Virus record (IMG/VR): IMGVR_UViG_3300020442_004221
Location: 1-53,072 of that record
Direction: 5' to 3' (one strand)
Origin: a virus
DNA length: 53,072 bases
The translations under genes and the position numbers were made by a program. The notes below the pieces were generated by a model. The model was given only the letters and a program-made list of their open reading frames with translations, made no database searches and was not told the DNA's origin. Within the stretch, counting starts at the first letter, position 1; every line of letters starts with the position of its first letter. Positions 8,121 through 53,072 of this stretch are shown here, one piece after another.

Positions 8121-8815
8121 GTTTTAAAAGCGTCCTTGAATTGAATTTTTTGGCTCAAATTTTTATGTAGTCTTAAGAATCTTATAACAATGTTAGCACA
8201 GTCCTCTACGTCTTTAACTGCATCATGAGCATTGTCTTTGCTGATGCCTAGATAATCTCTCATATTGTCTAAGGATAAAGATCTAATATCTGAATTATAA
8301 CTCATCCATAAGAACAGAACATGCATCAGATCAATTTTATCTCTAGGGTGAAATAAACAAGTTTCTTTTTCTCTATTCGTATTACCATATTTTACGCTCA
8401 GTCTGTTTACAATTGTCATATCATATCTTAGGATATTATATCCACAAGCAATTGGGGCCGTAAACTGCGACTTTTTACCTCCATTTGCTTTTAAATGATA
8501 TTTATCTAAATATGATACAAATTGCATCCAAGCTTGTTTTTGCTCCGGATAGTCTTTCCATTCAGATAATACTTGTTCAGCAGAAATAGCTCTTACTTTA
8601 CCATGCCATTCTAGAATGTCTGAATCCGTGTATGGGTTATCAACTTTATTATCTTCTAGTCTTTCTGGCTTCAGATTGATGTTAAAGTGTGATTTATCAA
8701 TTATTTCTAATTTATATGGATCTACAATTACAGCAGATAGTTGCACAGGACTACATTCATTTGGGTTCTTTCCGTCTGTTTCAAAATCGAAAACACATAT
8801 TTTATTACGAATCAT
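8117..8815 (-). CDS. 3'-5' proofreading exonuclease (DnaQ/DEDDh family)
   Basis: The 232-residue protein shows the DEDDh signature. Exo I is FDFETDG near residues 9-15, exo II is the ACGYNILRYD segment around 125-134, and exo III is NAHDAVKDVEDC near 191-202 with the His and Asp in the right spacing. It would remove misincorporated nucleotides, as the epsilon subunit does. The gene lies between the two halves of dnaE. Its ATG abuts the stop codon of the N-terminal half (TAAATG), with GGAG eight bases upstream, and it ends in an ATGA overlap with the C-terminal half. Stoichiometric production of all three parts is therefore likely. Confidence 0.9.
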   Translation of the reverse strand: MIRNKICVFDFETDGKNPNECSPVQLSAVIVDPYKLEIIDKSHFNINLKPERLEDNKVDNPYTDSDILEWHGKVRAISAEQVLSEWKDYPEQKQAWMQFVSYLDKYHLKANGGKKSQFTAPIACGYNILRYDMTIVNRLSVKYGNTNREKETCLFHPRDKIDLMHVLFLWMSYNSDIRSLSLDNMRDYLGISKDNAHDAVKDVEDCANIVIRFLRLHKNLSQKIQFKDAFKT

Positions 8816-22900: not shown

Positions 22901-24670
22901 TTAATTATCTTTTTTATGCAGGATAGAAAAGTCGTAGTATCTCTTAAATTCTTCTACAGTAGTAGATGAATCTTTTTCTGAACTTAGATTGTAGATTAAA
23001 TTGTTACATACGTAATGCTTAGATATAAAATTCCAAATTTTCACATTCTTTAAATCGAAATCAAGAAAGTCTTGTATCACTAAGTATAGTAAATAATCAT
23101 AAGGCATAGCTGGCAAAATATGATGTATATATAGTGGAAATATAGATTTACAAAATTCTAACCATAATTGCATTTGTTGATTACCAGTGGCATACAGACA
23201 AACCCCACCATTTAAATGGTTTTTATAAATATGATTTTGGAAAACATTGTTATCGCTATAGTTTTTAGATCCAGAAACCCAAAAGCTGCCTGCATATCGA
23301 CAATAATTATATATATTATTCAACCAATCTTCGCTAAAAAAAACGTCAGATTCCAGCATTAGGGTTGTGTTGTAATTGCTTAATTGTTTAATGGTTTCAA
23401 AAAAGCACCAGTTTGGACCAGCTAATTTACCATAAGTAGGACATGGTTCCTCTAGCATATATTTATCGTACTGAGTTGGTATATCTAGGTGTATTATATT
23501 TACATTTCTAAATGCATTTTCCAAAATAGTTAAATATCTATCTGGTATAGCATATTGTGTGCTAATGTTAAAATCTAATAGTTTTGCATGCTCTATATTA
23601 TCTGATAAGTTTTCTTCAAGCCTATGCATGAAGGTGTCGAAATTATTATTTTGTAATTCTTTACCTGTTAGCAACAAACAAATACTTTCTAATTTATTTG
23701 TATAGGGTTTGAGCATACTCGTTATTAGAAATTTTCTTATATTTAATTTATTATGGTCTATTAAATTATTTTTTAATGGATATGAATCCCTATTCCTCCC
23801 AGTTCTTCTGTCTAAATGTATAGCGTTAACCCTCGGATATAAATTAATAAAATTAATTTTACATTCATCCTCAATGTATTCCTTAAATAATCTATCGCAA
23901 TTTCCTATACCTAATTCAAAATTTATAGAGTGTTCATCTGGCATAGGAAATAATAATTTTTGATATATCCAACAGTCATGAGAATAATATGGATTTGTAG
24001 GAGAAGAACTGTCACCATATGAGTCGTGACTTTGTACAATATTATTGTCAAGATCAAGATCTTTACGGGTGATTGCATATAAAGTTTTTTCTGAAAAATC
24101 TTGACTCTTTACATATTCTAAAGTTTTATCAAAATATATATCCGTATTGGCTAAAATTTTAATATATGGACGATAGTATTTATTAGCATATTGCATCCAT
24201 AGCGCATAAGTAAGTCTTTCATGAATATTATAAGTATCAATCTTGGGATGATTAGCAAGATGTTCTGGTAAATTTATATTTTTAGATTCTAAAAATACAC
24301 ATATTTTGTGAATCGAGGGATTGCTTAAATTATTTTCTAAGCATTTGGTAATATTTTTTAATGTTTCATCATCTTTGGGCTCATACCATTGTATAAATAA
24401 AACAATATTTGTAACATAGTCACTATCTATATTCAATGAATGTTGATTATACGAAATGTTTTTTGTAATTTCACTCCCGCTAGTCCGAGTGTATAGTCTA
24501 TTCTCTTGTTTACCAAATTGCAAATAATGCATTATAGCACCATCTTCTGTGTCTATGCCAGCATGCACTAAATCAGGATTAGCAACTAAATAATATTCCC
24601 AATTAAAAGTATTTGGTAGTACTTTTATAATTTTTAAACGCTGTTCTTCAGTAAATGAAAAATCTTTAAA
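22901..24670 (-). CDS. Large glycosyltransferase-like protein with NPD repeat domain
   Basis: About 589 residues. Near the N-terminus, WEYYLVANPDLVHAGI followed by HYLQFGKQENR is the YLxxNPDV...HYxxxGxxEGR repeat that is common in front of polysaccharide-modifying enzymes. A GT-A-like part follows (IKILANTDIYF, near 170-180), then a second transferase-like region with TTLMLESDVFFSEDWL and LNGGVCLYATG. Both contain acidic metal-type residues. The start is ATG at 24670, because the longer frame uses TTG at 24691 inside gmd and GAGG precedes 24670. It follows the GDP-fucose genes closely (eight-base range), which suggests transfer of fucose or a related sugar. Confidence 0.65.
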   Translation of the reverse strand, partial: FKDFSFTEEQRLKIIKVLPNTFNWEYYLVANPDLVHAGIDTEDGAIMHYLQFGKQENRLYTRTSGSEITKNISYNQHSLNIDSDYVTNIVLFIQWYEPKDDETLKNITKCLENNLSNPSIHKICVFLESKNINLPEHLANHPKIDTYNIHERLTYALWMQYANKYYRPYIKILANTDIYFDKTLEYVKSQDFSEKTLYAITRKDLDLDNNIVQSHDSYGDSSSPTNPYYSHDCWIYQKLLFPMPDEHSINFELGIGNCDRLFKEYIEDECKINFINLYPRVNAIHLDRRTGRNRDSYPLKNNLIDHNKLNIRKFLITSMLKPYTNKLESICLLLTGKELQNNNFDTFMHRLEENLSDNIEHAKLLDFNISTQYAIPDRYLTILENAFRNVNIIHLDIPTQYDKYMLEEPCPTYGKLAGPNWCFFETIKQLSNYNTTLMLESDVFFSEDWLNNIYNYCRYAGSFWVSGSKNYSDNNVFQNHIYKNHLNGGVCLYATGNQQMQLWLEFCKSIFPLYIHHILPAMPYDYLLYLVIQDFLDFDLKNVKIWNFISKHYVCNNLIYNLSSEKDSSTTVEEFKRYYDFSILHKKDN

Positions 24671-25643
24671 CATTACTATAAGCCTCTTCAATCATTTCAT
24701 CTATTAACATTTCGAAATCATATTCTGGTTTCCAATTTAATTCCTTTTGGCTTTCGCTACTATCGCCTCTTAAAAAATCTAATTCTTCCGGTCTTTGATA
24801 TCTTTGATCTATCCGAACATGATCTGCAATATCTAAAGAAAGCTTAGAAAAAACATAAGATAATAAATATTGAACAGATTTTGCTTTACCTGTAGATATG
24901 ATATAGTCTTTAGGTTTTTCCTGTTGTAGCATTAGATGCATAGCTTTCACATAGTCTTTTGCATGACCCCAATCTCTATAAGCATCTAAATTACCTAAAA
25001 ATAAATATTGTGATTTTCCTAATTTGATATCAACTGCTCCTTTTATAATTTTATTAGTAACAAAATTGATACCTCTCCTCGGAGATTCGTGATTAAATAA
25101 AATACCAGATGAGATAAACATATTATACGAACGCCTATAGTTTTTGCATAGATGATATGCAAATAATTTGGAGCATCCGTATGGACTTACAGGACACATA
25201 GGGGTTGTCAACCTTTGGTATCCATCGCTATCAATAGTATTTCCAAACATCTCAGAAGAAGCAGCATTGTATATTTTAGCTTGAGGCATATTGGTTTTGG
25301 TAGACTCTAGCACATTCAGTGTTCCTCCGCAATTTACATCTGTTGTATATTTAGGCATATCAAATGATATCCTAACATGACTTTGCGCTGCTAAATGATA
25401 AATTTCATCAGGTTGAGCTATTTTAATAGCATGATCTATGGAAGACCTATCCAATAAATCCGCATAAATTAGTTTTATTTTTTCTTCTGCGTGTATTTTG
25501 GCGATTCTTGTTGTTTGGGATTCTGGTACTGAATTTCTCCTAATTGTACCATATAGATCATAATCTAAATAATTTAGATGCTCTATTAGATATGAAGCAT
25601 CTTGACCATTAGCTCCTATAATTAAAGCTTTCTTTTTAGTCAT
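24666..25643 (-). CDS. gmd: GDP-mannose 4,6-dehydratase
   Basis: The 325-residue short-chain dehydrogenase has the NADP-binding ALIIGANGQDASYL (7-20) and IRRNSVPESQTTRI, typical of GMD. The catalytic Tyr and Lys are in SPYGCSKLFAYH, and GILFNHESPRRG and YRDWGHAKDYV are GMD-specific motifs. It converts GDP-D-mannose to GDP-4-keto-6-deoxymannose, the first step of GDP-L-fucose synthesis in the cytoplasm. It follows the next pathway gene by four bases. GDP-mannose must come from the host. Confidence 0.93.
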   Translation of the reverse strand: MTKKKALIIGANGQDASYLIEHLNYLDYDLYGTIRRNSVPESQTTRIAKIHAEEKIKLIYADLLDRSSIDHAIKIAQPDEIYHLAAQSHVRISFDMPKYTTDVNCGGTLNVLESTKTNMPQAKIYNAASSEMFGNTIDSDGYQRLTTPMCPVSPYGCSKLFAYHLCKNYRRSYNMFISSGILFNHESPRRGINFVTNKIIKGAVDIKLGKSQYLFLGNLDAYRDWGHAKDYVKAMHLMLQQEKPKDYIISTGKAKSVQYLLSYVFSKLSLDIADHVRIDQRYQRPEELDFLRGDSSESQKELNWKPEYDFEMLIDEMIEEAYSNV

Positions 25644-25647
25644 GAGA

Positions 25648-26592
25648 TCATACTCTCTTACTGGCTTCTGTATTATTTTGAAACCAATATATAGTGTCTT
25701 TCAAACCTTCTTTGAGATTGATCTTGGCTTTCCAGCCTAATTCATTAATTTTACTTACATCTAAAAATCGTCTAGGAGTCCCATTAGGATAAGATGTATT
25801 CCACTTTATTTCACCATTATATCCAACCAATTCCTTAATAGTTTCTGACAATTGTTTAATACTGACTTCTCTACCGTTACCCACATTAATAATATCAGAA
25901 CTATTATAGTGCCTCATAAGATATATCGCAGCATCCGCTAAATCCTCAACGTGCAAAAATTCTCTAGTAGGAGTACCATCTCCATAGCATTCAACAAAAT
26001 TCTCATTTAATGCCTTTGCTTGTATAAATTTTCTAATTAATGCTGGTATTACGTGACATTGGGATATATTAAAGTTGTCATTAGGTCCATATAAGTTAGC
26101 TGGCATCAAAGATATAGTATTCAAGCCATATTGTTCTTTATATTTAGCGCACATAATATGTCCAGCTATTTTAGCTATAGCATATGCAATATTCGTTTCT
26201 TCCAATGCTCCTGTTAAAAGACTAGATTCTTTTATGGGTACATCAGCCATTTTAGGATATATACAAGCAGAACCTAAAAAACAAAACTTAATAACACCAT
26301 AGTCACACGCTGCATTAATTACATTCGTTTGTATCAACAGATTATCTTTAATAAAGTCGGCTGGATATTTTTTATTACAAGTAATACCACCGACTTTTGC
26401 AGCTGCTAGAAATACATATTCTGGATTAGTTTTTTTAAAGAAATCTTGCACATCATTTTGATTTCTTAAATCTAATTCCTGTTTGCTCCGAACTATAAGA
26501 TTGCTATAGCCTTCTTTTGATAATTTTTCCACTAAAGCAGAACCCACCATACCATTGTGGCCTGCGATGTAAATTTTAGCTTTATTTTCCAT
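25648..26592 (-). CDS. fcl: GDP-L-fucose synthase
   Basis: The 314-residue enzyme begins KIYIAGHNGMVGSALVEKL, the NADP-binding loop, with IVRSKQELDLRNQNDV after it. FLGSACIYPKMADVPIKE and YAIAKIAGHIMC give the catalytic Ser/Tyr/Lys of the epimerase-reductase, and MPANLYGPNDNF is family-specific. It epimerises and reduces the Gmd product to GDP-L-fucose. Order fcl-gmd then a large glycosyltransferase is an operon for making and using the sugar; the same pair occurs in several large phages. Confidence 0.93.
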   Translation of the reverse strand: MENKAKIYIAGHNGMVGSALVEKLSKEGYSNLIVRSKQELDLRNQNDVQDFFKKTNPEYVFLAAAKVGGITCNKKYPADFIKDNLLIQTNVINAACDYGVIKFCFLGSACIYPKMADVPIKESSLLTGALEETNIAYAIAKIAGHIMCAKYKEQYGLNTISLMPANLYGPNDNFNISQCHVIPALIRKFIQAKALNENFVECYGDGTPTREFLHVEDLADAAIYLMRHYNSSDIINVGNGREVSIKQLSETIKELVGYNGEIKWNTSYPNGTPRRFLDVSKINELGWKAKINLKEGLKDTIYWFQNNTEASKRV

Positions 26593-26596
26593 AGTT

Positions 26597-28249
26597 TTAT
26601 ATTATATACAATTTAGAACTCTGCAAGGAATAAGGTATAATACCAGACAATATTCTTTCCCATGAATGGGTGTATGTAGGTTGATGATTCTTTCTATAAC
26701 CTGTCTCTAAGGTTAAATAATGATCCAAAAGATTAACCTTATATTTTTCAATAAATTCATTAAACATTTTATGTTTACAAACAAACATAGTTCCTGCAAA
26801 AAAGTCTATTTTGGAAGAATCTATATCTATGTTATATTCTTTGCAAAAGTTATCAATAATAGGCTGGTTTACAGTATCTAACATCATGTTCTTTTGTTGT
26901 GGTCCAGCTATATAGCAATTGTGTTTATTAGTCAATATATATTGAGTATATAGCATATTATTTAATATAGTATCAAAGCATATATCTCTAAATCCATGAT
27001 GTGTTTTACTGTGAAGTTTAACAATAAAGTCATAATTATCTTTCAGTATATAGTGATATAATATGTATAAAAACGGACCTATATCAGCTCCTTTATTAGG
27101 CAGGATAAAGGTTTTCATATTATCAATTTTTGTATTTGATGTAATAAAATATGTAGTATTAAAATAATTTAATTTATTTATAGCTGTTTGTATAGAATCA
27201 AGAATTCTAGGATTTGTATTGCCTATATGTATATGACATGCTATGCTGTGGCTTTTATCGTACGTTTTAACAGACGATTTTAAATTATCTATGATACTAG
27301 TAGATTTTATAGATGTTCCATTTAGAAAACAATTATGAAGGTTTTGACGCATAGTTTCATATGCCCAAGAGCTTACGCATGGGATTTTTAGATTATCCAC
27401 TAAGGTTTGATAATCAAGTAATTTTAAGCCAAATAGGTTATACCAAAAAACCTCTTTAACTTGCGTATGTGCGGCGTAATATTTATAGGATATATTTTGC
27501 TGTTTTAAAAAATTAGTAAGAGAGTAACATAAATTAATATTAAAATTATATCTAATTGTTTTTAAGATCTTAATTAATATTTTATTTTTAATTAATAATA
27601 AATTAGGGTTAACGCACCTATAGAATCTATTATTATAATTGTGATAAACATCACATACAGATTTTACATCTTCATCAAAATCATTTAAAAAATCACAAAG
27701 GTAATCATTAATACATATATCATTGTTTGCAAATAATGTATACTTATATTTATTAGATATTTTTTTTAAAGTCCAGATATCTTTAATATCAACTATATAG
27801 TCGTGATATGTTTTATTAAAAATTTCTTCATCTTTTAAAGATTCTGGAAGAATGATATAGATTCTATCAACATTATGTTTTATTTTTTCAATAGATTCTA
27901 GGGCTATGTTTTTAGATATCTCATCTGTTTTTTTAACTACATATACACAACATATTTCAGAACTATCTAATTTATCAAACTTTACATCTGTATGTTTTTG
28001 ATTAAATAAATATTTATACTTTTCTCTATGCTTTAAATAAAATTCCAAAGCATGGTATTGATTTACTAAGATAATATCAGACCAATTTAATTCACTAATA
28101 AAAACACCATAATCGAAATTATCTTCAATTACAGCAGGATGGATATACCTTCCATCATGAATACAATCTTGTATATATTCGCTAACATTAGATGTGCATG
28201 CATAATACTCGTTATAAAACTGTTTATCAAACAGTTCCTGTATGTCCAT
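26597..28249 (-). CDS. RgpF-like rhamnan synthesis glycosyltransferase
   Basis: The 550-residue protein has an N-terminal NPD-repeat-like part (FDKQFYNEYY, YIHPAVIEDNFDYG). A middle GT-A-like section (TLFANNDICIND) follows. The C-terminal 200 residues match RgpF/Rhamnan_synth_F: ILPNKGADIGPFLYIL, DFIVKLHSKTHHGFR, DFFAGTMFVCKHKMF and THSWERILSGII. Streptococcal RgpF adds rhamnose side chains. The same motifs recur in the 49 kb gene, so the two are paralogues. An AGGAT ribosome site precedes the ATG. It is upstream of fcl and gmd in the same transcript. Confidence 0.75.
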   Translation of the reverse strand: MDIQELFDKQFYNEYYACTSNVSEYIQDCIHDGRYIHPAVIEDNFDYGVFISELNWSDIILVNQYHALEFYLKHREKYKYLFNQKHTDVKFDKLDSSEICCVYVVKKTDEISKNIALESIEKIKHNVDRIYIILPESLKDEEIFNKTYHDYIVDIKDIWTLKKISNKYKYTLFANNDICINDYLCDFLNDFDEDVKSVCDVYHNYNNRFYRCVNPNLLLIKNKILIKILKTIRYNFNINLCYSLTNFLKQQNISYKYYAAHTQVKEVFWYNLFGLKLLDYQTLVDNLKIPCVSSWAYETMRQNLHNCFLNGTSIKSTSIIDNLKSSVKTYDKSHSIACHIHIGNTNPRILDSIQTAINKLNYFNTTYFITSNTKIDNMKTFILPNKGADIGPFLYILYHYILKDNYDFIVKLHSKTHHGFRDICFDTILNNMLYTQYILTNKHNCYIAGPQQKNMMLDTVNQPIIDNFCKEYNIDIDSSKIDFFAGTMFVCKHKMFNEFIEKYKVNLLDHYLTLETGYRKNHQPTYTHSWERILSGIIPYSLQSSKLYII

Positions 28250-28278: not shown

Positions 28279-29916
28279 CTACGGTAATAGATCCTTCACA
28301 TCAACCAATAGAGAGGATGCTGAATAACACGGAGGATCTGTCACACAGTCACCCGCATCATTATAGCCCAAACTTTCGCATGTAGCATTGGGGTCTCCAA
28401 TTTCGATTAAATTAATACTTATACTAACGGGTTCTGATCCACTACACTCGCAGCATACTAATTCACAATTACTTTCACTATCACTACAATCTGTTCCAGA
28501 TCCGCAGTCACACTCTTCTATTTGGAAGTCTACAGCTCCCTTAGTTTTAACCAAAATTCCAGGATCGAATCCTTCGAGATCATTAGGGTCTATATCTATC
28601 GTTACAGTACTACCGGGGCCACCGCCAAAACCTAAATCTAATTCTAATGTGTATACGCCAGTTTGCTCATTATATGTATAGCCACTTGCTGTAAAATGAT
28701 GATCGGCACCTTGCGGCCCTTTCATCTGTTCATTTAAAGTCCCCATAAGATCTGAATCATTCATGAGTTCAGTTATGTTGATAGGACTACCAGTAGCTAC
28801 TTGGTCATTGTATAAATCAGTGAGTTTTTGTTTTGCATCTGCGCCAAGTGTATCTCCAATATGGTCTAGCATTGTAGTGCCTGATAAAGTTCCGTCCTCG
28901 TTATAAGTTTGCATAGTCAGCATGTTATTCAAAAAATGAGTCATATTTTGAAAATCATTACTGTTATTGCCGTTTGGATGACCGTTTTCTGGATCACCAT
29001 TAGTGTGCATAGGTACATGAGAGCCATCATTAAGCCTCTTTATTATGTAGTCTATTAAAAGCTTAGGATCATTAGCAGATCCTGGAGGTCTTATCAGAGG
29101 TATAATTCTCGCTCCTTTTTCCGCAAAACACTCACACTCTACTACTCCTTCTCCAAAAGTTCCGTCTTCCAAAAATTGTGCGCATTCATCATCATTGATA
29201 ACTGGTATGCAATTACATGGTCGATTGTTTGCGTTTTCTTGAAAAAATTCTGCTAGAACATTTGAACAAGCATCTGTCATTTTGGGTCCCTCTTCACCTG
29301 CCGGACGATACATAGGTATAGGAGATCCCTTAGATGGTGGTGGTGGAGGTGGAGGTGCTGCTTGCAGTGAGAAATTACCACCAGATATAAAGGTAGTTTT
29401 ATTAGGCGAGTTATCATCCAAAAAGCTAGTATTAGAGATAGGAATAGGAGAAGATGTAGAATCATATCTAGCATCTCCCATGCCTGCACATCCCATCATT
29501 TTTTTATAATTTATTTCTTGATCTTCTGGTATAATCCCAGCTTGTTTTAATCTATCATTTAATATTTGAATCAGCGGTACAGTCTCACAACACGGGTTAT
29601 CATAAACATAACCTTCATTATCGCTAGTGGTTTGATCTATAACAATTCCATCTTCAATTTTTTTTTCGGTTAGTGGAATTGCCTTACTAGCATGTGGCAT
29701 TACTTGCTGATTATTAATCATTACATCAGGAGATGGTTGTGCTCCATTAGGCGCTTTCGTTTTAACACTTCTATATGGCGGATAGATAACAGCCCCAGAT
29801 CTTGATGCGGTAGGAGGTGGTGTGTTGGTGTCACCAGCAGTGTAGCTTCCTGCCCTGTATACAACATACGAACCATCGGGTCTACATTTTTGGAAATGTT
29901 TTGGTGACTGACTCAT
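28279..29916 (-). CDS. Pro- and Cys-rich virion-like protein
   Basis: I do not recognise a family. The 545-residue protein opens with a polar segment (SQSPKHFQKCRPDGSYVVYR), has a poly-proline tract AAPPPPPPPSKG near residue 190, and many short acidic Gly/Asn-rich linkers. Cys pairs are scattered (PCCET, CNCIPV, CECF) and the last 80 residues are Cys-rich (CDCGSGTDCSD, CELVCCECSG). TYTLELDLGFGGG near 420 suggests beta sandwiches. Such composition suits a fibre or decoration protein; the similar Pro/Cys make-up of the gene at the right end supports a shared structural role. Confidence 0.55.
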   Translation of the reverse strand: MSQSPKHFQKCRPDGSYVVYRAGSYTAGDTNTPPPTASRSGAVIYPPYRSVKTKAPNGAQPSPDVMINNQQVMPHASKAIPLTEKKIEDGIVIDQTTSDNEGYVYDNPCCETVPLIQILNDRLKQAGIIPEDQEINYKKMMGCAGMGDARYDSTSSPIPISNTSFLDDNSPNKTTFISGGNFSLQAAPPPPPPPSKGSPIPMYRPAGEEGPKMTDACSNVLAEFFQENANNRPCNCIPVINDDECAQFLEDGTFGEGVVECECFAEKGARIIPLIRPPGSANDPKLLIDYIIKRLNDGSHVPMHTNGDPENGHPNGNNSNDFQNMTHFLNNMLTMQTYNEDGTLSGTTMLDHIGDTLGADAKQKLTDLYNDQVATGSPINITELMNDSDLMGTLNEQMKGPQGADHHFTASGYTYNEQTGVYTLELDLGFGGGPGSTVTIDIDPNDLEGFDPGILVKTKGAVDFQIEECDCGSGTDCSDSESNCELVCCECSGSEPVSISINLIEIGDPNATCESLGYNDAGDCVTDPPCYSASSLLVDVKDLLP

Positions 29917-35089: not shown

Positions 35090-35848
35090 TTATACAAAAA
35101 GTTTTTCCCATTCTGTAGTATCCTCAGTATGATTATTCCTATTTTTACAACTACTGGCACTTTGAGTTCTAGAGCCAAAATCGGTCCTAACGCCCACCAT
35201 TCTGATATTTGAACATAATAATGTGAATTTTTCGATATTATTCGAAATAGAGCTATCTATTTGCTGTTGTAATGGAAATACATATTTTAAGATTTTTGCT
35301 GCTCCTTTGTTAGATAAAATATATCCATATAATCCAGTAATTAATCCTCTAGGTTTTGCAATGGCGTTATTTAGTATGTTTTTCTGAAAGCCCGGTATTT
35401 CGTTATATCCCAAATATATAATGTCATATTCAGTATCTAAATTTTCATTATGTATACTAGTCAATAAATATGAAAGATTTTTATCAAATGTTTCATTTAT
35501 AATTATATCATCTTCAAATATTAGATATGGCTTATTTCGTTTACTACATTCTTCATAAATAAGATAGTGAGACAAGGCACACGCTGCTGATCCATATGTT
35601 AATGATATTCCATATGTGCTTTGGGATTTTTGTTTAATTTCATTTTTAGCTTTTTCAGATATAATTTCCTTTGGTATAATTCTAATATCTAGATTTTCAC
35701 CATATACAGCTTCATATCTCTTGCATTGCTTATCCAGTAAAGATGATTGCTTTTGTTGTGATTCAAAATATGTTCTTTTCTTTTGGTCATTATTAAGATT
35801 GATATAATATATCTTATCAAAATATTTATAGATATCTATATTTTCCAT
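35090..35848 (-). CDS. GT25-family glycosyltransferase
   Basis: The 252-residue enzyme has the GT25 layout: IYYINLNNDQKKR (residues ~14-26), GSAACALSHYLIYEEC, and the metal-binding YLIFEDDII. LYGYILSNKGAAKIL and QIDSSISNN follow as in LPS galactosyltransferases of this family. It transfers a sugar, often galactose or glucose, to lipooligosaccharide or protein. It has a TAATG overlap with the upstream GT2-like gene. Confidence 0.85.
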   Translation of the reverse strand: MENIDIYKYFDKIYYINLNNDQKKRTYFESQQKQSSLLDKQCKRYEAVYGENLDIRIIPKEIISEKAKNEIKQKSQSTYGISLTYGSAACALSHYLIYEECSKRNKPYLIFEDDIIINETFDKNLSYLLTSIHNENLDTEYDIIYLGYNEIPGFQKNILNNAIAKPRGLITGLYGYILSNKGAAKILKYVFPLQQQIDSSISNNIEKFTLLCSNIRMVGVRTDFGSRTQSASSCKNRNNHTEDTTEWEKLFV

Positions 35849-36912
35849 TATTTTACAGAATAGTAGTAGTTCTTATCGTCGTATTTTTTATAAAATGTTT
35901 CTTCGCCCCATTCATCCCAAATGATTTTAATAGAGTCGTCATCTATATATTCAAAACTACCATGATCATTATTATCTATATTGTACATTCTATTGTTTCT
36001 TTTATTTAATATTACATAAGATTTCCAATACTGGTGTTCAAACAAGCAAATACTACAAAAATCATTTTCTATATTATTGTATAATGTTGGTTTTGATTTA
36101 CGAATATTAGGTGATGAGACATTATTTTGATGTTTATGGTACAGTACATGGTCAAATTTAGGTATAACGTAAGAAAGTAAATTTTTTTCTCTCCATCTAG
36201 TTCTCCAAACAGGATCTTCAAAAGGATGTATTTTATGATTTTCTTCTGGAGTGAGTTTTAATATTATGTCTAAAGCCTTATTATTAAAAGCGTATGTACA
36301 CGGCATACCAAATTTAATATTGCTTTGTAAATCCGGACCCCAAGCTCCTGAAACAGTATCGAATTCTCCTTCGGATATATGATTGGATTCTATTTGATAT
36401 TTAATTTTAGCTGATATGATGTCTATTTGATGTTTTGAAAAATTATCAATAATATTTTCTAAGTATGAGTGTTTATAAATATCATCATCATCTATTTTAA
36501 TAAATAAATTATATTTATGATAATCTATTTTTTTGATAGGGTAGATGTAATTTTCATGTTGATCCATATTTTGATGATAAAAAATTTGTAGTCTATTATC
36601 CTTAGCAAAGTCTTGTAATAATGTTTCATATTGTTTTTTTTCTATATCGTTATCTATGCATATTCCAACAATATATTTAATGTCTTTATATGATTGATTA
36701 TTTAATATATTATTAATACAATTAAAGATGTGGTAGGGTCTTTTGTAAGATGTGGTAAAGCATACAGGTCTAGCGATATATCTACCTTTTCTCTTCTGAA
36801 TTGCAGACTGATTGGCAACCAAGCTTTTTTGATTAGTTACAGTTTTCTTTCTTTTTGTTACTTTCTTTTTACTAGTTTTAGTATTTGTTGTCTTTTTTGT
36901 TTGTTTAGCCAT
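35848..36912 (-). CDS. GT2-like glycosyltransferase with Lys-rich N-terminus
   Basis: A low-complexity Lys/Thr tract (residues 1-28) precedes a GT-A domain: VCFTTSYKRPYHIFNCI, NNQSYKDIKYIVGI, and LFIKIDDDDIYKHSYL with the DxD-type metal site. KFGMPCTYAF and HPFEDPVWRTRWRE are in the acceptor region. The donor and acceptor are unknown. The basic N-terminus is unusual and may bind nucleic acid or an acidic partner. It forms a three-gene glycosyltransferase block with its neighbours. Confidence 0.7.
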   Translation of the reverse strand: MAKQTKKTTNTKTSKKKVTKRKKTVTNQKSLVANQSAIQKRKGRYIARPVCFTTSYKRPYHIFNCINNILNNQSYKDIKYIVGICIDNDIEKKQYETLLQDFAKDNRLQIFYHQNMDQHENYIYPIKKIDYHKYNLFIKIDDDDIYKHSYLENIIDNFSKHQIDIISAKIKYQIESNHISEGEFDTVSGAWGPDLQSNIKFGMPCTYAFNNKALDIILKLTPEENHKIHPFEDPVWRTRWREKNLLSYVIPKFDHVLYHKHQNNVSSPNIRKSKPTLYNNIENDFCSICLFEHQYWKSYVILNKRNNRMYNIDNNDHGSFEYIDDDSIKIIWDEWGEETFYKKYDDKNYYYSVK

Positions 36913-36915
36913 CTG

Positions 36916-38217
36916 TTAAACCTTTATAATAATTTTTTCTACCCAATCGCCATCTTTAATATGAGGAATAATAACACAATGGTCAGGCTTGCCACTACAA
37001 GAAAATACAGATCTATGTGTATTACTTTTTTTATTAAAGATATTATTATAGTAAGTATTATCTTTTTCTATATGCATATCTTTTCTCCATAATAGATTAT
37101 CGTCTTTATCTTCAAATCCAAAAAACCAAAAATCAAATTCAACATCGTCAGGAACATCTTCGTAGTTCCAAGTTATATCTATAGTATGTTTATTAAGCAT
37201 ACCTTCATGCCATTCTTGTTCTGTCATTATAAATGGCTCAGGCATATCTCTTGCGTCATTGAGCCTAGCCGCATATTTATGAACCCTTCTGTTTTTAAAG
37301 TCTAAACCAGCGTATAGTTCATAATCATGTAAAGATCTCACATTACCTAATCCGTAGTGCTTAAAGTCTAAATTATTAGGGTCCATATTAAATAATGCTC
37401 TTTGTCGTTGCTTGGATCTTTTATCTCTGGTACTAGCTAGTGTGTCAAAGTCAGATATTTTTGTATGATCTCCCCAATGTTTATGTTCACGTTGTCTAAG
37501 GTATTCATGCCAAACAACAGATCTAGTAGGATGAAACATATCATACCCATGAGTATACGCCCTAGCACTAAGTGTTATCTCTTCACCTCTAAAATATAAG
37601 TTAGGATCATATATACATTCTCGAACAAACATACCGGAACTAAAAATAAAATGACCAGACAACAATCTTGCATTAATTAGATTAACATTATTAGCTTTAT
37701 GATTATCGTGCTCGATTATATGTTGAGGTCTAGAAACTATATCTCCATCGTCCGTAAAGGTGTCAAATGTTACAATACGATACGGCTCTTCTATAAGTGG
37801 CTCTGTATCTTCTCTATCCGGCCAATATGTAGTTCCATAAGTTCCAATAATTGGTTTAGATGATGGCGCTTCATCATATAAATTTTTTAAATATTCGTCC
37901 CAGTGCTCTTTAAACCTATGATGTGAATCTAATTGAAAATAATACTCTTCTCCTTCGTATAAAAATTTTTGTATAATATGTCTAGCCCAACAAGCTCCCT
38001 TACTTTTTTGCCAATCGCATTCATAGATTCTAATATTTTCATTATCTATAAATTCTTCTATAGACTCAGATTCATCTTTTTGCCAACAAAGACCTACTCT
38101 TATTAGGTCTGGATATTTAGCTTTAATGAATAGATCTCTCAAGGTAGGCAAAAGCTCAGGATCTCTATATGAAGCTATGCTTACAAATATCAGATTATTG
38201 TTTTGCGTTATTGACAT
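36916..38217 (-). CDS. GT60-like (GlcNAc-transferase domain) glycosyltransferase
   Basis: The 433-residue protein matches the GlcNAc transferase Pfam family seen in the Skp1 enzyme: LIFVSIASYRDPELLPTL, ARHIIQKFLY, EEYYFQLDSHHRFKEHWD with DSH as the metal motif, and SSGMFVRECIYDPNLYFRGEE. VWHEYLRQREHKHW completes the family signature. A C-terminal domain (GWHEG-like, then beta-rich ~340-433) is specific to phage. In eukaryotes this family adds GlcNAc to hydroxyproline; here the acceptor is unknown. Confidence 0.8.
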   Translation of the reverse strand: MSITQNNNLIFVSIASYRDPELLPTLRDLFIKAKYPDLIRVGLCWQKDESESIEEFIDNENIRIYECDWQKSKGACWARHIIQKFLYEGEEYYFQLDSHHRFKEHWDEYLKNLYDEAPSSKPIIGTYGTTYWPDREDTEPLIEEPYRIVTFDTFTDDGDIVSRPQHIIEHDNHKANNVNLINARLLSGHFIFSSGMFVRECIYDPNLYFRGEEITLSARAYTHGYDMFHPTRSVVWHEYLRQREHKHWGDHTKISDFDTLASTRDKRSKQRQRALFNMDPNNLDFKHYGLGNVRSLHDYELYAGLDFKNRRVHKYAARLNDARDMPEPFIMTEQEWHEGMLNKHTIDITWNYEDVPDDVEFDFWFFGFEDKDDNLLWRKDMHIEKDNTYYNNIFNKKSNTHRSVFSCSGKPDHCVIIPHIKDGDWVEKIIIKV

Positions 38218-44224: not shown

Positions 44225-45317
44225 ATAGATACTGAATCATTTGACTAGCGGTGTGATTCCAGCTAAATTGAGATGCTGTTTTAACACCCTCGGCGTTATC
44301 TATAATACGATTTTTGTATACATATTTCATATGCTCTATGCATTGATCTATGGCATCAGTTGTTAAGCTTGCCCAACGACCTCTACCATGAAAAAATTTA
44401 CCGTCAACAGCATCTTCCAAAGTATTTACGTCTACCAAATAACTGTTTTTATTATTCGCATATTGCGTATGGCCAGAATAATTTGTTAGTATAATTGGTT
44501 TATTCATAGACATAGTCTCTAATGCTTCATTATTCCATCCCTCAGCTCTTGCTGGATAAATGCCACAATTAGAAAGTTTAATTAACTTAGCAATATGCTC
44601 TTGTGTTGGAAGACGGGGAAATATACGTATTTTATCTCCAAGTTTACTATTTTTGTACATTTTTTCCCAATGTTTATTTTCTTTTTCAGATAAAAAAGCA
44701 TTACTATTAAGCATCCATAGTTCTACATCATCATTTTCACTAAAAGCTTTATTGAAAATATGTACCAAAAGATCATGACCTTTTCTAATTTCCCATTTAC
44801 CTATATTTAAAAAGATATATTTATCTTTATCTACATCAGCTTCGTCTATCTTAATATCTGGAGTAAATACATCTCTATCGACTCCAGAGGGAGCTATCTT
44901 GATCTTGTTTTCATCCAACCCATTATCAATTAAAACATCTTTTGCCCAAGATGTAGGAGCAAAAATGATATCAGATATACTATATGAGGATATCTCTTCT
45001 TTAGCTAATTTATCAACTTCAAAAAAACTATAAGTACTATATAATCCTTTATTGCAAGGTTTAATGCTTAAATCAGAAGGATGCCAGATTTTTAAGCATG
45101 GATTTTGCAATGATTCAGAATTGTATTCCTGTTGCTTATAAATGTCTCTAAGTAAACTTTCTTTGTCCCATTGTTGTTCTACATACATATCATGAATTAA
45201 AAATAAAGTTATATCTAATTTCTTGCTAAGTGCTTTCCACACGTTATAAGAGGTAATTCCATAGCCCATATTATTTATAGGGCAATTAAGGCTTATTTTT
45301 TTCATATTATTTTTCAT
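44217..45317 (-). CDS. GT4-family glycosyltransferase
   Basis: The 366-residue enzyme shows GT-B features: NMGYGITSYNVWKAL, FAPTSWAKDVLIDNG, GVDRDVF (UDP-sugar domain start), YIFLNIGKWEIRKGHDLLV and PARAEGWNNEALETMSMNKP for the donor site with the E-x7-E pattern. SGHTQYA follows. It lies in a block with a GT-A-like gene and GMP reductase. AGGAT precedes its ATG, which overlaps the end of the reductase gene. Acceptor unknown. Confidence 0.8.
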   Translation of the reverse strand: MKNNMKKISLNCPINNMGYGITSYNVWKALSKKLDITLFLIHDMYVEQQWDKESLLRDIYKQQEYNSESLQNPCLKIWHPSDLSIKPCNKGLYSTYSFFEVDKLAKEEISSYSISDIIFAPTSWAKDVLIDNGLDENKIKIAPSGVDRDVFTPDIKIDEADVDKDKYIFLNIGKWEIRKGHDLLVHIFNKAFSENDDVELWMLNSNAFLSEKENKHWEKMYKNSKLGDKIRIFPRLPTQEHIAKLIKLSNCGIYPARAEGWNNEALETMSMNKPIILTNYSGHTQYANNKNSYLVDVNTLEDAVDGKFFHGRGRWASLTTDAIDQCIEHMKYVYKNRIIDNAEGVKTASQFSWNHTASQMIQYLYE

Positions 45318-46419
45318 ATATCCTATTATGTGTATTATTAACTCTAATAAAAGTTGTATTCTTTCCCATATCTTTTAGACTCTTAGCACCGATGTATGTA
45401 CAGCAACTCCTCAAGCCACCTAGAATGTCCATAAGAACATTTTCTGTTTTACCTTTATATGGTATGCTTACACACCTACCTTCACTAGTTCGGTAGTCAG
45501 CAACTCCACCAGTATGTTTATTCATTGCTTCTTTACTACTCATACCATAAAATTTTAGAGATACTTTTCTTTTTTCTGTAGGATATTTAGGATCAAAAGG
45601 TTGCCACCATTCTTTATTACTTCTATCGTCTTCCCCTAAAGTCTTACATCTCCATTCATACTGCCATTCTCCCGAACAACAATCTGTTCCTGCCAGCATT
45701 CCACCTAACATTACAAAATCAGAATTACCACAAAATGCCTTGCATACATCTGCTGGCGTAGTACATCCACCATCGCTGCATACGTGACCTCCTACACTAT
45801 GAGCAGCGTCAGCACATTCTATCACAGCAGATAGTTGAGGATAACCAATACCTGTTTTAAGTCTTGTAGTACACACACTACCTGATCCTATACCTATCTT
45901 GACTATATCAACACCTCCATGAAATATTAGTTCTTCTGTCATTTCTGGAGTCACTACATTTCCCGCCATAATAATAATATCAGGATACCATTCTCTAATT
46001 TTTTTAATTGTAGATACAAATTTTTCGTTATATCCGTTAGCTACATCAATACATAAATTAGGTTTATTTTGTAAGTTATCGTACACAGTACTTAGTTTTT
46101 CTATATCTGGTTCAGATATTCCCGTAGAATAAAAAGCATACTGCTTATTGGAGGAAAAATATTTGATTAATTCTTGACTCTTGTAATGCTTGTGTAAACA
46201 AGTTATGCAATCAAAACTAGAAAGTGTATCCTCCATTTCCATAGAGCCTGTAGTATCCATATTTGCAGCTATAATAGGTACACAATTTAGTTCTCTCGTA
46301 GAGTGAGGAAATTTAAAAACTCTATTTAAATCTACCTGCGACCTACTAGATATATTAGATCTTTTAGGTTTAATCAAAACATCACTAAAATCTAACTTAG
46401 TATCTTGAGTAATTTTCAT
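45307..46419 (-). CDS. guaC: GMP reductase (IMPDH/GMPR family)
   Basis: The 370-residue TIM-barrel enzyme starts DTKLDFSDVLIKPKRSN as in GuaC. VPIIAANMDTTGS, IMAGNVVTPEM, and VKIGIGSGSVCTTRLKTGIG with the catalytic Cys are present. HVCSDGGCTTPADVCKAF and GMSSKEAM complete the phosphate- and nucleotide-binding loops. About 40 extra residues lie around CCSGEWQYEWRCK. GuaC converts GMP to IMP with NADPH. In an AT-rich phage this would move guanine into adenine nucleotides. IMP dehydrogenase is a less likely reading. Confidence 0.85.
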   Translation of the reverse strand: MKITQDTKLDFSDVLIKPKRSNISSRSQVDLNRVFKFPHSTRELNCVPIIAANMDTTGSMEMEDTLSSFDCITCLHKHYKSQELIKYFSSNKQYAFYSTGISEPDIEKLSTVYDNLQNKPNLCIDVANGYNEKFVSTIKKIREWYPDIIIMAGNVVTPEMTEELIFHGGVDIVKIGIGSGSVCTTRLKTGIGYPQLSAVIECADAAHSVGGHVCSDGGCTTPADVCKAFCGNSDFVMLGGMLAGTDCCSGEWQYEWRCKTLGEDDRSNKEWWQPFDPKYPTEKRKVSLKFYGMSSKEAMNKHTGGVADYRTSEGRCVSIPYKGKTENVLMDILGGLRSCCTYIGAKSLKDMGKNTTFIRVNNTHNRIYEK

Positions 46420-49007: not shown

Positions 49008-49940
49008 TTATTGTTTTATAATTTTATATCTATCAAATTTCTTATATCTAACAATAGGCTGATTATCAAAATGATACCATTTTATATCTATATATTTTTC
49101 ATCTTGATAGTGAATATAACCGAAAACGTGCAAGTCTTCTGTTAAATAACATAGCTTATTGTATGTAATTCTTAAGTGTAGTTTTCTGTATTGACTGTTA
49201 AAAACAGTATAATTTTGTGTAATACAGGGTGAGAACTTTAAGCCTTCTGATGTGATAATATATCCAAATATTCTTTCTAAGGCATGACTATATGTTCCTG
49301 TGGAGGTGTTACCATCATAAACCTTACCGGTTTCCGTAGATAGCAAGGTGTCTAAATAAGAAAAATGCTTCGATAAATATTTTTGAAAAATTTTAGTTTT
49401 AGATAAAAACATTGATCCTGCCGCAAATTTTGTATCACTAACAGTACTGTAATCAATTCCTATTAAATTGCACAAAGTATCAATTTTTTGAACATTACGA
49501 CCTTGGTTATTTTTTAAGGTTAAGAAACCATGTGATACAGTGCCTATGTGTTTCGAATTGATTGAAGATATGTTGGATTGGTAATTAAATAAATCACCTA
49601 TTAGACTATCTATAAGTATAGTTCCCCAATCAATATCTCCGTTCTTACCAAATAAAGATTGTTTAGAGTGTATCTTGATGAAATAAGGAAATTCTTTATG
49701 GCTTATTCTGGATAGTTGATGTAAAAAGGGTGCTATATCAACACCATAATTTTCATGATAGCTTATATCAACTATTCTATCTTTAAATTTATTAATAAAA
49801 CTATCTAGGAGAATATGTTTTTTATTTTTGATATTAGCAGATATAGCTATTGCAGGTTGTTTTAGTACGTTCAGTAGTGATGATAATTCTTGTAGTCTTT
49901 CTAGAGAGTATAGCTGTAATAATAAAATTGTATTACTCAT
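49008..49940 (-). CDS. RgpF-like glycosyltransferase (second copy)
   Basis: This 310-residue protein resembles the C-terminal part of the 26.6 kb gene: ISYHENYGVDIAPFLHQL, YFIKIHSKQSLFG, TKFAAGSMFLSKTKIF and TYSHALERIFGYIITSEG correspond to its motifs in order. A C-terminal tail of about 60 residues (YLTEDLHVFGYIHYQDEK) is extra. It lacks the N-terminal NPD and middle GT domain. I start at ATG 49940; 49946 is TTG. It overlaps the FGE-like gene by eight bases. Confidence 0.7.
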   Translation of the reverse strand: MSNTILLLQLYSLERLQELSSLLNVLKQPAIAISANIKNKKHILLDSFINKFKDRIVDISYHENYGVDIAPFLHQLSRISHKEFPYFIKIHSKQSLFGKNGDIDWGTILIDSLIGDLFNYQSNISSINSKHIGTVSHGFLTLKNNQGRNVQKIDTLCNLIGIDYSTVSDTKFAAGSMFLSKTKIFQKYLSKHFSYLDTLLSTETGKVYDGNTSTGTYSHALERIFGYIITSEGLKFSPCITQNYTVFNSQYRKLHLRITYNKLCYLTEDLHVFGYIHYQDEKYIDIKWYHFDNQPIVRYKKFDRYKIIKQ

Positions 49941-50907
49941 TACCAATAAATACTTTATTTTTTATAGGTGGTGTTTCGTGCTGATTAGATTTAAATAAAC
50001 ATTTAGAATTTTTATAAATTTCATAGTAATTCTCATAATGTTGATTATTATTTTTAACATATATTATATAGATATATTTCTCTAAAGTTTCTATTTGTAA
50101 ATCAAACGATAATGGGCCGTATCCATCTTTAAGAGCAATTTTATCTGCTATAATATTGTTGGATGAATCTGTCACACGAATGTAATTATCTTGCCATCCG
50201 TCACCATACACATCATATAATAAAATAGATATAGTATGGGTATCGCATTTTTTACAAAGCCTACCACTAATATAGGAACTATGATAATTATTTGACACAT
50301 AAAACTTTACCCCAGCCTTAGCGTTGGATGGATGTCTATTTTGTGCTCCACCAGCAATTAAATATTTGTTTTTTTTATTATTATCTCTTAGAATATTGAA
50401 AAACTTAAAACCAGCATTTATTAAGCCGTATGAAGAAATGTGATTTTCGTTGACATTAATCTTATCTACATCATCTTTATTATTTGGAAATATAGAATAT
50501 TTTTGTTTGTATGGGTTATAATAAACTGATTTATAGAATTCATTATAATTTGGGATCCAGTATTTATTTGATACTGAACTTTCTATTGTATCATCATTGT
50601 TTATTTCTTTATTGTTTTTCCAGTTGCAGTATTGTTGTAATTTTTCTAAATTGATGTAGGTTGCAGGTAAGTTAATGTCAATTTCATCCTTGGTATTAAA
50701 AACATTATTACTATAGTAAATTACTTGCTGTAAGTGTTCATCATATATATTTAATTTTATAGCTTCATTTCCTATATCATTTAGAAACATAGTAAAATCT
50801 TTGTAAGTAATAAAATTTCTTTGAATGAAAAAAGAATAATCTACAGAACCATATCCGTTGATATCTGATTTATTACATTTATTTTTTATTAAACAAAAAT
50901 CATTCAT
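49933..50907 (-). CDS. Degenerate FGE/SUMF1-like segment plus YGDGW domain protein
   Basis: The protein has about 190 residues related by layout to formylglycine-generating enzyme and other C-type-lectin-fold proteins: SFFIQRNFITYKDFTMFLND, KYWIPNYNEFYKSVYYNPYK, then SSYGLINAGFKFFNIL and AGGAQNRHPSNAKAGVKFYV. The late part follows FGE order but lacks its catalytic Cys pair. Residues ~235-300 are a separate beta domain with CDTHTISILLYDVYGDGWQD and IRVTDSSNNI, the YGDGWN pattern found in surface proteins. It is probably a receptor-binding or decoration protein. It overlaps the next gene upstream in sequence by eight bases. Confidence 0.55.
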   Translation of the reverse strand: MNDFCLIKNKCNKSDINGYGSVDYSFFIQRNFITYKDFTMFLNDIGNEAIKLNIYDEHLQQVIYYSNNVFNTKDEIDINLPATYINLEKLQQYCNWKNNKEINNDDTIESSVSNKYWIPNYNEFYKSVYYNPYKQKYSIFPNNKDDVDKINVNENHISSYGLINAGFKFFNILRDNNKKNKYLIAGGAQNRHPSNAKAGVKFYVSNNYHSSYISGRLCKKCDTHTISILLYDVYGDGWQDNYIRVTDSSNNIIADKIALKDGYGPLSFDLQIETLEKYIYIIYVKNNNQHYENYYEIYKNSKCLFKSNQHETPPIKNKVFIGNE

Positions 50908-51598
50908 ATTGAGTTTGTATTGATAAAGAATTTATAGTTTCATTAACTGGATTATTTAGTATTGTATAATTACTAAAATCAAATTTAATTTTTTCGCAAG
51001 GTATTCTATTGAATTCATCATGTGAAATATTATTATAGTTATATACAGAAATTATATCAAGATCATTATTTATATTAACATTGTCTACATTCTTGCGGAT
51101 AGAAGTTAGAAAAATAGACTTGTTATGAAATATATATATGTATGCATAAGCAATATAGTCTTTGTATTTATTAATACATGTCCATACTTGGTTATAACCT
51201 ATCCACTTTGTAAAAATAAATTTACTTCCATTATCAACAGACAACAGTATGTTAGGTAAGTTTTTAACGAAAGTATTATCCTGGCATATGCAATTCATTT
51301 CATTTAAGTCATAATTTAATTTAATTAATTCAATAGCATCGCTTGAAGGTATTAGTATGTTTTTAATATTTGTATCTAAATTTTTTACGCCCCAATTTGT
51401 ATTTATATTTAATGGTAGTGTACCCTCGTCTGCAATCTTGATTGTATCTATATGCTTTTTGTTATTTAGTGCAATTATAATTTTATTATAAGGTGTGTTG
51501 CGTAAGCTATATAAATAATTATTCCTAATAGGTGTAGAAGAATTAGAATTATTTAATAAATAGATATTATCTGAATGAAAATTGATACTTAAATGCAT
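50900..51598 (-). CDS. Hypothetical protein, 232 aa, Asn-rich
   Basis: No family was recognised. The protein is Asn- and Ile-rich, probably beta-rich (NIYLLNNSNSSTPI, IFTKWIGYNQVWTCIN, IAYAYIYIFHNKSIFLTSI). It has no signal or membrane segment. It lies between the FGE-like and the small acidic gene in the virion-like block at the right end. The very low GC of this stretch is shared with its neighbours. Confidence 0.5.
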   Translation of the reverse strand: MHLSINFHSDNIYLLNNSNSSTPIRNNYLYSLRNTPYNKIIIALNNKKHIDTIKIADEGTLPLNINTNWGVKNLDTNIKNILIPSSDAIELIKLNYDLNEMNCICQDNTFVKNLPNILLSVDNGSKFIFTKWIGYNQVWTCINKYKDYIAYAYIYIFHNKSIFLTSIRKNVDNVNINNDLDIISVYNYNNISHDEFNRIPCEKIKFDFSNYTILNNPVNETINSLSIQTQYE

Positions 51599-51607
51599 TG
51601 CTTATTT

Positions 51608-51802
51608 TTAATCAATTTTAAATATTGATGCAAAATCCTTTATGTCTGATATATTAGGTTCATTTAGAGGATCTATTACTTCTACGTTTAGATCTGATGT
51701 TATTATAATAACTTGATATGAAGATAGGCTCAAGTTATTAATTTTTGATGTCAACTTATCGTTATTAATATAATTAAATATATTTAAATTATTAACATTC
51801 AT
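51608..51802 (-). CDS. Small protein, 64 aa
   Basis: No family was recognised. The protein is acidic with short strands (YQVIIITSDLNVEVIDPL) and could be a small beta-hairpin domain. It overlaps the right-end gene by 11 bases and precedes the 232-residue gene, so it is part of the same transcript. Confidence 0.45.
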   Translation of the reverse strand: MNVNNLNIFNYINNDKLTSKINNLSLSSYQVIIITSDLNVEVIDPLNEPNISDIKDFASIFKID

Positions 51803-53072
51803 TTTCTGTATTTAACCAATTAAGCGATTTCTGCTCGTTGTGTTCAATAATAACATCCTGTTTAAATGGGTGTGGAGGACATTCTTGATCTTGTTCTATC
51901 ATAAGCATTTGTTTGGGGCTAGCAATATTATCGGAACAGTATTTATCGTATAGACACCACTTATATGGACTAGATGAAATCTTATCTTCTTTACATGGTT
52001 TTTCTGAACATGTATTTTGACAGCAATATCCTGTTTTTTGGACTATTTTAACAGAACAGTTATCTGAGCATTTATCTTTGTATTGAGATTTACATCTATC
52101 AAGCCATCTATCTGTATTAATTAATGTTATATCTAATTTTGTATATGGTCCATTGAGAATTGTGGTATCTTGACAACCATCTGTATATTCTATGTAATAA
52201 TAAATACAAATATCGTCATCTAAGCAATATTGAGTTTGCTGTACTGCTGCTGTAGTAGCTACTTGTGTAGTTGGTGGTACTGTTGGAGTTACTGTTGGAG
52301 GAGGACTGCATACTCCATCTACACAAACCTCACCAATAGCACAACACACCCCATTACAGCAAGAAAGGCTGTATTGACAGCATATAAGTCCACAGCATCG
52401 ACCCACTGCTGGGTTACAACATTGTCCTACCCCACTTTGGCAAGCTGAAACACCCCCGCAGAAAGTAGTACCGGGTATTGTTGGACAACAAACAGGTGTA
52501 CCAGCAGGATTATAACAAATAAGTTGAAAACCAATGGGGCATGGGTTTCCTGGCGGCGGTGGTGGAGGTGGTGTTGGGGGCGGAGGTGGCGGCGGTGTTG
52601 GTGGAGGAGGAGGTGGAGGAGGAACTGTTGTTGGGGGTGGTGGAGGAGGAGGTGTTGGAGGAACAGTTGGTGTTGCTGTTGGAGGAACAGTTGGCGTTGC
52701 TGTTGGTGGTACTGTTGGAGGAACAGTTGGTGGTACTGTTGGAGGAACAGTTGGTGGTACTGTTGGTGGTACTGTTGGTGGTACTGTTGGTGGTACTGTT
52801 GGAGGAACAGTTGGAGGAACAGTTGGTGTTGCTGTTGGTGGTACTGTTGGAGGAACAGTTGGTGGTACTGTTGGAGGAACAGTTGGTGGTACTGTTGGAG
52901 GAACAGTTGGAGGAACAGTTGGCGTTGCTGTTGGAGGAACGGTTGGAGGAACAGTTGGTGTTGCTGTTGGAGGAACGGTTGGAGGAACTGTTGGTGTTTC
53001 TGTTGGAGGAACGGTTGGAGGAACTGTTGGAGGAACTGTTGGTGTTTCTGTTGGAGGAACGGTTGGAGGAAC
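51792..53072 (-). CDS. Thr/Pro-repeat, poly-Pro and Cys-rich virion-like protein, 5' end beyond window
   Basis: The frame is open from the window edge to a stop at 51792 (426 codons here). In order: more than 35 four-residue units of type TVPP, TATP or TETP; a poly-proline stretch (PPPPPPPTPPPPPPPT); and a Cys-rich module with many CC pairs (QCCNPAVGRCCG, LICCQYS, CCNGVCCAIGEVCV). A shorter TVTPTVPPTT linker and a C-terminal Cys-rich domain (residues ~130 before the end) follow. A GTG at 52406 is not the start, because the coding pattern continues upstream. Such a stalk is like mucin or other O-glycosylated fibres. Pro/Cys composition is shared with the 28 kb virion-like protein. Confidence 0.75.
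   Translation of the reverse strand, partial: VPPTVPPTETPTVPPTVPPTVPPTETPTVPPTVPPTATPTVPPTVPPTATPTVPPTVPPTVPPTVPPTVPPTVPPTVPPTATPTVPPTVPPTVPPTVPPTVPPTVPPTVPPTVPPTVPPTVPPTATPTVPPTATPTVPPTPPPPPPPTTVPPPPPPPPTPPPPPPPTPPPPPPPGNPCPIGFQLICYNPAGTPVCCPTIPGTTFCGGVSACQSGVGQCCNPAVGRCCGLICCQYSLSCCNGVCCAIGEVCVDGVCSPPPTVTPTVPPTTQVATTAAVQQTQYCLDDDICIYYYIEYTDGCQDTTILNGPYTKLDITLINTDRWLDRCKSQYKDKCSDNCSVKIVQKTGYCCQNTCSEKPCKEDKISSSPYKWCLYDKYCSDNIASPKQMLMIEQDQECPPHPFKQDVIIEHNEQKSLNWLNTENEC
52632..53072. repeat. 12-bp in-frame tandem repeat (TVPP/TATP/TETP)
   Basis: About 36 copies of a 12-base unit, with variants ggaggaacagtt, ggtggtactgtt, ggtgttgctgtt, ggaggaacggtt and ggtgtttctgtt. Variants alternate irregularly and continue past the window edge. 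As the unit is a multiple of three, copy-number change would lengthen or shorten the stalk without breaking the frame. Confidence 0.85.

Follow-up and report, generated by a model that had tools for sequence, protein, structure and literature searches.

A Thr/Pro-repeat stalk protein of a probable planctomycete phage and a phage-encoded GT60 enzyme as its candidate glycosyltransferase

The question raised by this locus is what a protein built from a long Thr/Pro repeat and a Cys-rich part does for a phage, and whether it is sugar-coated by the phage's own enzymes. The DNA analysed, here called the window, is an entire virus record of 53,072 bp. The original prediction had placed the repeat, a poly-proline segment and a CC-rich module in one frame running past the window edge, and this was confirmed by an ORF fragment of 426 residues with the following parts:

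51792..53072, minus strand: stalk ORF, without a start and open at the record end
52656..53072, minus strand: Thr/Pro stalk, 34 complete TVPP/TATP/TETP tetrads and a cut VPP, leaving the contig edge
52551..52655, minus strand: poly-proline linker of 35 residues, in the same frame
52305..52550, minus strand: head part 1, a NPCPIGFQLICYN..PVCC domain (NPCPIGF...PVCC) and a CC module (CCNGVCCAIGEVCVDGVC)
52230..52304, minus strand: Thr/Pro-rich linker of 25 residues within the head
51795..52229, minus strand: head part 2, a conserved C-terminal domain ending in TENEC, with the stop codon at 51792-51794

The complete in-phase tetrads comprise 27 TVPP, five TATP and two TETP units; a TPPP junction ends the array and the cut VPP lies at the contig edge. 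The long in-frame array that had been predicted was therefore present, but the claimed "more than 35 units" fell to 34 complete ones when TVPP, TATP and TETP alone were counted. With 29% T and 45% P over 139 residues, the stalk is mucin-like in the sense of an extended region of Thr/Ser- and Pro-rich tandem repeats. The longest tetrad run numbered 35 (TPPP junction counted) against a mean of 1.1 and a maximum of only 3 after residue shuffling of the same protein, and is thus not expected by chance. No second array of this type was seen in the six frames of the window. The DNA repeat unit is 12 bp, with exact higher-order copies at 24, 36, 48 and 60 bp, which suggests repeat expansion. If a polyproline-II conformation with a rise of 0.31 nm for each residue is assumed, the part of the stalk seen here would by arithmetic form a rod of ~43 nm, or ~54 nm with the poly-proline linker. 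Scans for promoters and terminators gave results at chance level. In eukaryotic mucins and Thr/Pro stalk glycoproteins such as PsA of Dictyostelium, tandem Thr/Pro tetrads of variable copy number are located between an anchor and a head. The present protein differs from these in being viral, in its putative glycosylation and in that no signal peptide was seen by eye in a complete relative.

Two syntenic relatives of the virus were found in IMG/VR, namely G006 (36 kb) and the tailed phage G010 (195 kb). Some 30 orthologous ORFs link G006 to the window (28-92% identity), and the G006 contig, like that of the window, stops within the stalk gene. The contigs of two further relatives, G045 and G046, start inside a neighbouring giant Thr/Pro gene. 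Counting the window, there are five related records, and in four of them the sequence breaks off in Thr/Pro repeats. In G010, terminase and tape-measure matches mark a structural block at 18-64 kb, after which the whole gene order of the window follows. A profile search detected a complete ortholog of the stalk protein in G010, which starts with MSLFRDIIRGGILKFGHEALTKFKHAKPDNLRLCCCD (MSLFRDIIRGG...) and consists of a 37-residue N-terminal part, the stalk and then the head. Its stalk has 1,319 residues (661 P, 402 T; 81% Pro or Thr), a figure which comes from metagenomic repeat assembly and is uncertain as an exact length, and the corresponding polyproline-II rod would measure ~400 nm. A frame change was noted in an ACC/ACA run near the start of this ortholog; as ribonucleotide reductase and DnaE are also broken in G010 but intact in the window, it is suspected to be a sequencing error. 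It could be proposed that the ORF is due to chance or artefact, read antisense from a low-complexity GGT/GGA repeat or produced by a collapsed assembly, since the contig terminates in the repeat and the repeat leaves several frames open. This is most improbable given the protein-level conservation after the stalk in two orthologs and the 1,673-codon open frame in G010. A different poly-Pro and Cys-rich protein of 545 aa, without a family match, is encoded at 28282-29916 of the window; no ortholog of it was seen in G006 or G010.

The Cys-rich head comprises two Cys-rich domains with a short Thr/Pro linker between them and contains 32 Cys among the 252 residues from Gly175 to the C-terminus. It could be aligned end to end in the three phages, with G006 and G010 showing 46-48% identity to the window, and most of its Cys are invariant in this alignment, with variation in the copy number of the CC module. 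The motifs YIEY..GPYT..GYCC..WCxYxKYC..NIxSPK..ECxPHxF..NEC were identified in head part 2. It is probable that the head is held by disulfides or metal; its predicted structure was poor (pLDDT 61). The search for the CC-rich module, suggested as a check with the original prediction, led to a conserved head in both relatives but to no family, PHROG or PDB match. Neither stalk nor head gave a match in Pfam, PHROG, NCBIfam or PDB, and no recognised fibre or virion domain was detected in the stalk protein with Pfam, PHROG and PDB. Single-protein searches with the head returned only module look-alikes in viral contigs and nothing in INPHARED phages, and profile searches returned nothing in GTDB genomes or in 37 other large phage records. 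The CC-x-G-x-C modules recall the MXAN_6577-like Cys-rich family (NF041328), but the window protein has no match to that model. Modules of the MXAN_6577 type also make up a protein of 1,454 aa, 281 of them Cys (L010:6365-10726), in a related phage, G003, whose 165-kb record carries a divided DnaE too. This protein scored 58.8 bits against NF041328, below the curated cut-off of 100. Collagen-like GPPGPP stretches were observed alongside repeated Cys modules (TGACCVGDYC...GGDYFGD) in large phage proteins of L026, L028 and L073.

The stalks of the window, G006 and G010 have their composition in common and not their sequence, and both stalk length and sequence differ greatly between species, whereas the length differences between isolates in the original prediction are putative. 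The orthologs retain the head on differing stalks, which supports a stalk role for the repeat. The free drift of stalk sequence and length, along with the retention of most head Cys, would also fit a metal- or receptor-binding head as the working part and a stalk that is a mere linker of neutral length. This is considered rather improbable, since the ortholog stalks diverge in sequence yet remain Thr/Pro-rich, which indicates selection on stalk composition.

The original prediction also held that the stalk is glycosylated by the phage's own enzymes. The genes of the window relevant to this, together with those next to the stalk gene, are:

50903..51598, minus strand: next gene, 232 aa, no function assigned, syntenic in both relatives (38%)
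49936..50907, minus strand: 324-aa gene with a weak, sub-threshold FGE-sulfatase-like match and a GDGW-type domain by eye, syntenic in both relatives (43-46%)
49011..49940, minus strand: glycosyltransferase-like gene, judged by its neighbours and its paralogy to 26600-28249, no Pfam match
36919..38217, minus strand: PF11397 (GT60) polypeptide GlcNAc-transferase with a GalNAc-T-like fold, candidate initiator of stalk glycosylation
35851..36912, minus strand: GT2-like glycosyltransferase, weak match under the curated cut-off
35093..35848, minus strand: GT25-family glycosyltransferase (PF01755), candidate extension enzyme
24669..26592, minus strand: GDP-mannose 4,6-dehydratase and GDP-fucose synthase-type epimerase, presumed GDP-fucose supply

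In the relatives, a Thr/Pro and LamG-like gene for a protein of 2.6-2.7 kaa lies just upstream of the region corresponding to 49011..49940. This protein, with GDGW and LamG-like domains and Thr/Pro linkers, adjoins the stalk gene (L099:12845-20665; L098, G006:25313-33445) and is absent from the window.

The GT60 gene is present in the window and both relatives, and in the window it is not adjacent to the stalk gene but 14 kb away. Its product matched PF11397, the family of the Skp1 hydroxyproline GlcNAc-transferase, with 219.9 bits against a cut-off of 21 (HMM, E=8.5e-65), and the DxH metal-binding motif (D97-S98-H99) is invariant in 39 phage homologs. An AlphaFold2 model built with these 39 homologs (pLDDT 90.5) retrieved polypeptide GalNAc-Ts as about its top 40 PDB folds (E down to 1e-10), at a global TM of only 0.4-0.5, and thus has a GT-A fold resembling that of polypeptide HexNAc-transferases. 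The best solved matches were human GalNAc-T2, T4 and T12, fly PGANT9 and Toxoplasma GalNAc-T3. The three human enzymes initiate mucin-type O-glycosylation. Although these animal enzymes (GT27) are the nearest solved folds, the phage enzyme shares ~11-18% identity with them, shows no lectin domain and has no secretory pathway. The GT60 enzyme acting on Skp1 is cytosolic and is related to the Golgi enzyme that initiates mucin-type O-glycosylation (PMC8724618). The window enzyme resembles it in PF11397 membership, solubility and the DxH motif, and differs in being phage-encoded and linked to Thr-Pro-rich virion proteins instead of Skp1, with Thr or hydroxyproline as the possible acceptor. Prolyl hydroxylase candidates (PF13640) were detected in six of 45 records, G010 and G004 included, and not in the window, G006 or G005; hydroxyproline is therefore possible but not required.

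To test for linkage of this enzyme to Thr-Pro-rich proteins, the best 80 of 550+ GT60 loci in IMG/VR were taken with 10-kb flanks (57 after dereplication), and the best 80 GDP-mannose-dehydratase loci (70 after dereplication) served as control for glycan-rich phages. An ORF was called Thr-Pro-rich when a 40-residue window contained T >=25%, P >=20% and T+P+S+A >=70%. Such an ORF lay within 10 kb in 34 of 57 GT60 loci and in 1 of 70 control loci (Fisher P=1.6e-14), counts which are not fully independent because its presence is clustered on the GT60 tree (at least 12 changes over 80 rows, in more than one lineage). The remaining 23 of the 57 GT60 loci had none within 10 kb. In a third set, about 56 chance loci without GT60, one had such an ORF, and this one belongs to a relative of the window. 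For 18 of the 34 loci, fewer than 90 bp separate the Thr-Pro-rich ORF from GT60.

Outside their Thr-Pro parts, the GT60-linked proteins matched only virion families wherever a PHROG function was named (baseplate wedge and hub, tail fiber, head closure, major head and virion structural), and five Laminin_G_3 matches were found among them. Within INPHARED, GT60 occurred in three isolates only. Xanthomonas phage XacN1 and Stenotrophomonas phage RAS14 each encode a giant protein with a TPTPTP segment within ~10 kb of GT60, and that of XacN1 directly follows two baseplate wedge genes. In G005, a record chosen for its TVPP repeats only, the GT60 gene lies between portal-like and scaffold-like genes. 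The association of GT60 with Thr/Pro-rich virion proteins in many phages suggests that sugar-coated particle stalks occur in phages. It should also be noted that the GT60 gene of G005 (L118) is replaced by a 2OG-Fe(II) oxygenase gene in the equivalent place of G004 (L121:15514-16620), again with portal-like and scaffold-like flanks, which suggests interchangeable virion-modifying enzymes.

In a rival reading the stalk is a bare Thr/Pro spacer, a polyproline-II rod in a virion fibre, and GT60 and the other glycosyltransferases have a different target, such as glycans of the host surface, DNA or some other protein of the virion. Pro-rich stretches are stiff even without sugars, the G010 stalk contains long Thr-poor PPAPPTPP and poly-Pro runs, and phage glycosyltransferases often have DNA or host antigens as their target (PMC12619734). 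This is considered unlikely, as both family and fold of GT60 are those of polypeptide HexNAc-transferases and many phages carry its gene directly beside a Thr-Pro-rich ORF, with odds that greatly exceed those for the other glycan gene.

A further possibility is that the protein is not part of the virion and is made in the infected cell, to be displayed or released, whether for surface masking, for superinfection exclusion or by leaving the cell with the lysate. Its gene in G010 (~126-131 kb) is indeed outside the structural block, within a glycan and host-manipulation region, and the protein has no known virion domain. On the other hand, no obvious export signal could be seen by eye in the complete G010 relative starting MSLFRDIIRGG..., the Thr-Pro-rich proteins adjacent to GT60 in other phages match virion families, and on a T4-like contig a comparable Thr-Pro/Cys protein is encoded with an S74-type fibre gene on one side and a cluster of glycan genes on the other. 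Like the linker-only reading, the non-virion one is hence given a rather low probability. The protein of the T4-like fibre region (L023:7341-9086 of G001, same as L018) has 582 aa and consists of TAAP/TVPP stalks and Cys-rich modules.

The best explanation, which we favour with some reserve, is that the protein is a phage surface stalk that is O-glycosylated by the phage's own GT60 enzyme, the glycan being extended by other phage enzymes. A self-glycosylated fibre stalk appears well supported by computation, owing to the family and fold of the GT60 enzyme, its linkage to Thr-Pro-rich ORFs, the virion-family matches and the pairing in XacN1 and RAS14. Of the original prediction, an enzyme suited to the task was borne out by PF11397/GT60 with its GalNAc-T-like fold, in the same genome and from a family linked to Thr-Pro-rich virion proteins. 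The fibre or decoration stalk gained from the orthologs that keep the head and swap the stalk but lost from the lack of a known fibre domain and the gene position outside the G010 structural block. A virion location of the window protein is what we infer, and the glycosylation, its acceptor residue and its function are likewise putative. As proposed, an N-terminal anchor (37 residues in G010) would be followed by a long, extended Thr/Pro stalk of variable length and by the Cys-rich head. The cytosolic GT60 polypeptide HexNAc-transferase would initiate O-glycosylation of the stalk on Thr or hydroxyproline, and the remaining glycosyltransferases and sugar-nucleotide genes would lengthen the glycan. 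The sugar-coated stalk may keep the head clear of the particle, and the coat may give the particle hydration and resistance to proteases and may either make it adhere to the surface glycans of the host or shield it from them. Shielding, hydration or adhesion to planctomycete surfaces is the presumed role of the coat. Additional glycan genes were found in G010, namely NeuB, a CMP-sugar cytidylyltransferase family member, UDP-GlcNAc 2-epimerase, GT11, GT92 and several sulfotransferase-like genes, about four of which were confirmed by Pfam. The NeuA/NeuB/NeuC-like, GT11, GT92 and sulfotransferase-like genes at 130-190 kb of G010 (L108-L110) resemble a large charged-glycan toolkit.

Self-glycosylation of virions is known from a few actinobacteriophages, and in the mycobacteriophages Che8, Corndog and Myrna the virions are glycosylated by enzymes that the phages themselves encode (Freeman et al., 2023, as cited in PMC12363180). 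In that system, too, phage-encoded glycosyltransferases act on the phage's own virion proteins; the targets in the account given there are capsid and tail-tube subunits, and it names neither a mucin-like Thr/Pro stalk nor GT60. Mucin-type initiating enzymes with dedicated Thr/Pro acceptor stalks would be new, as a literature search on phage mucin-like, Thr/Pro or Skp1-type glycosylation found no precedent on point. A wider proposal, tentative and somewhat short of an even chance, is that phages run mucin-type O-glycosylation, with GT60 initiating on Thr-Pro stalks of baseplate, fibre and head proteins in many large phages. In the window lineage, pathways encoded by the phage would add fucose, nonulosonic acid and sulfate to glycans on stalks that reach ~1,300 residues, giving a sulfated mucin-like coat. 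If true, it would explain in general why TPTP repeats are common in phage fibres, for which there has been no explanation so far; it would also give bacterial viruses a counterpart of mucins and provide simple cytosolic enzymes for producing mucin-like glycopeptides in bacteria, and the gene pair would be directly testable in cultured phages.

The host of this lineage is probably a member of the Planctomycetota, by extension also for the window. G010 encodes a DUF1559 pseudopilin (L109:13891-14853; PF07596, E=3.4e-43) with best GTDB matches in Mariniblastus, Pirellulaceae and other Planctomycetota, and this family has been described as apparently restricted to Planctomycetes (PMC10632474). Markers in the window include Pol III alpha (in two pieces), PhoH, RecA, SSB, ribonucleotide reductase and a ClpP-type head protease. 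An IMP dehydrogenase/GMP reductase family gene is located at 45310-46419 and shows 84% identity in G006. The DNA polymerase III alpha gene is split within 6516-10702: its two parts, 8819-10702 and 6516-8120, flank an exonuclease-like gene (8120-8815, by eye), an order which is the same in G010.
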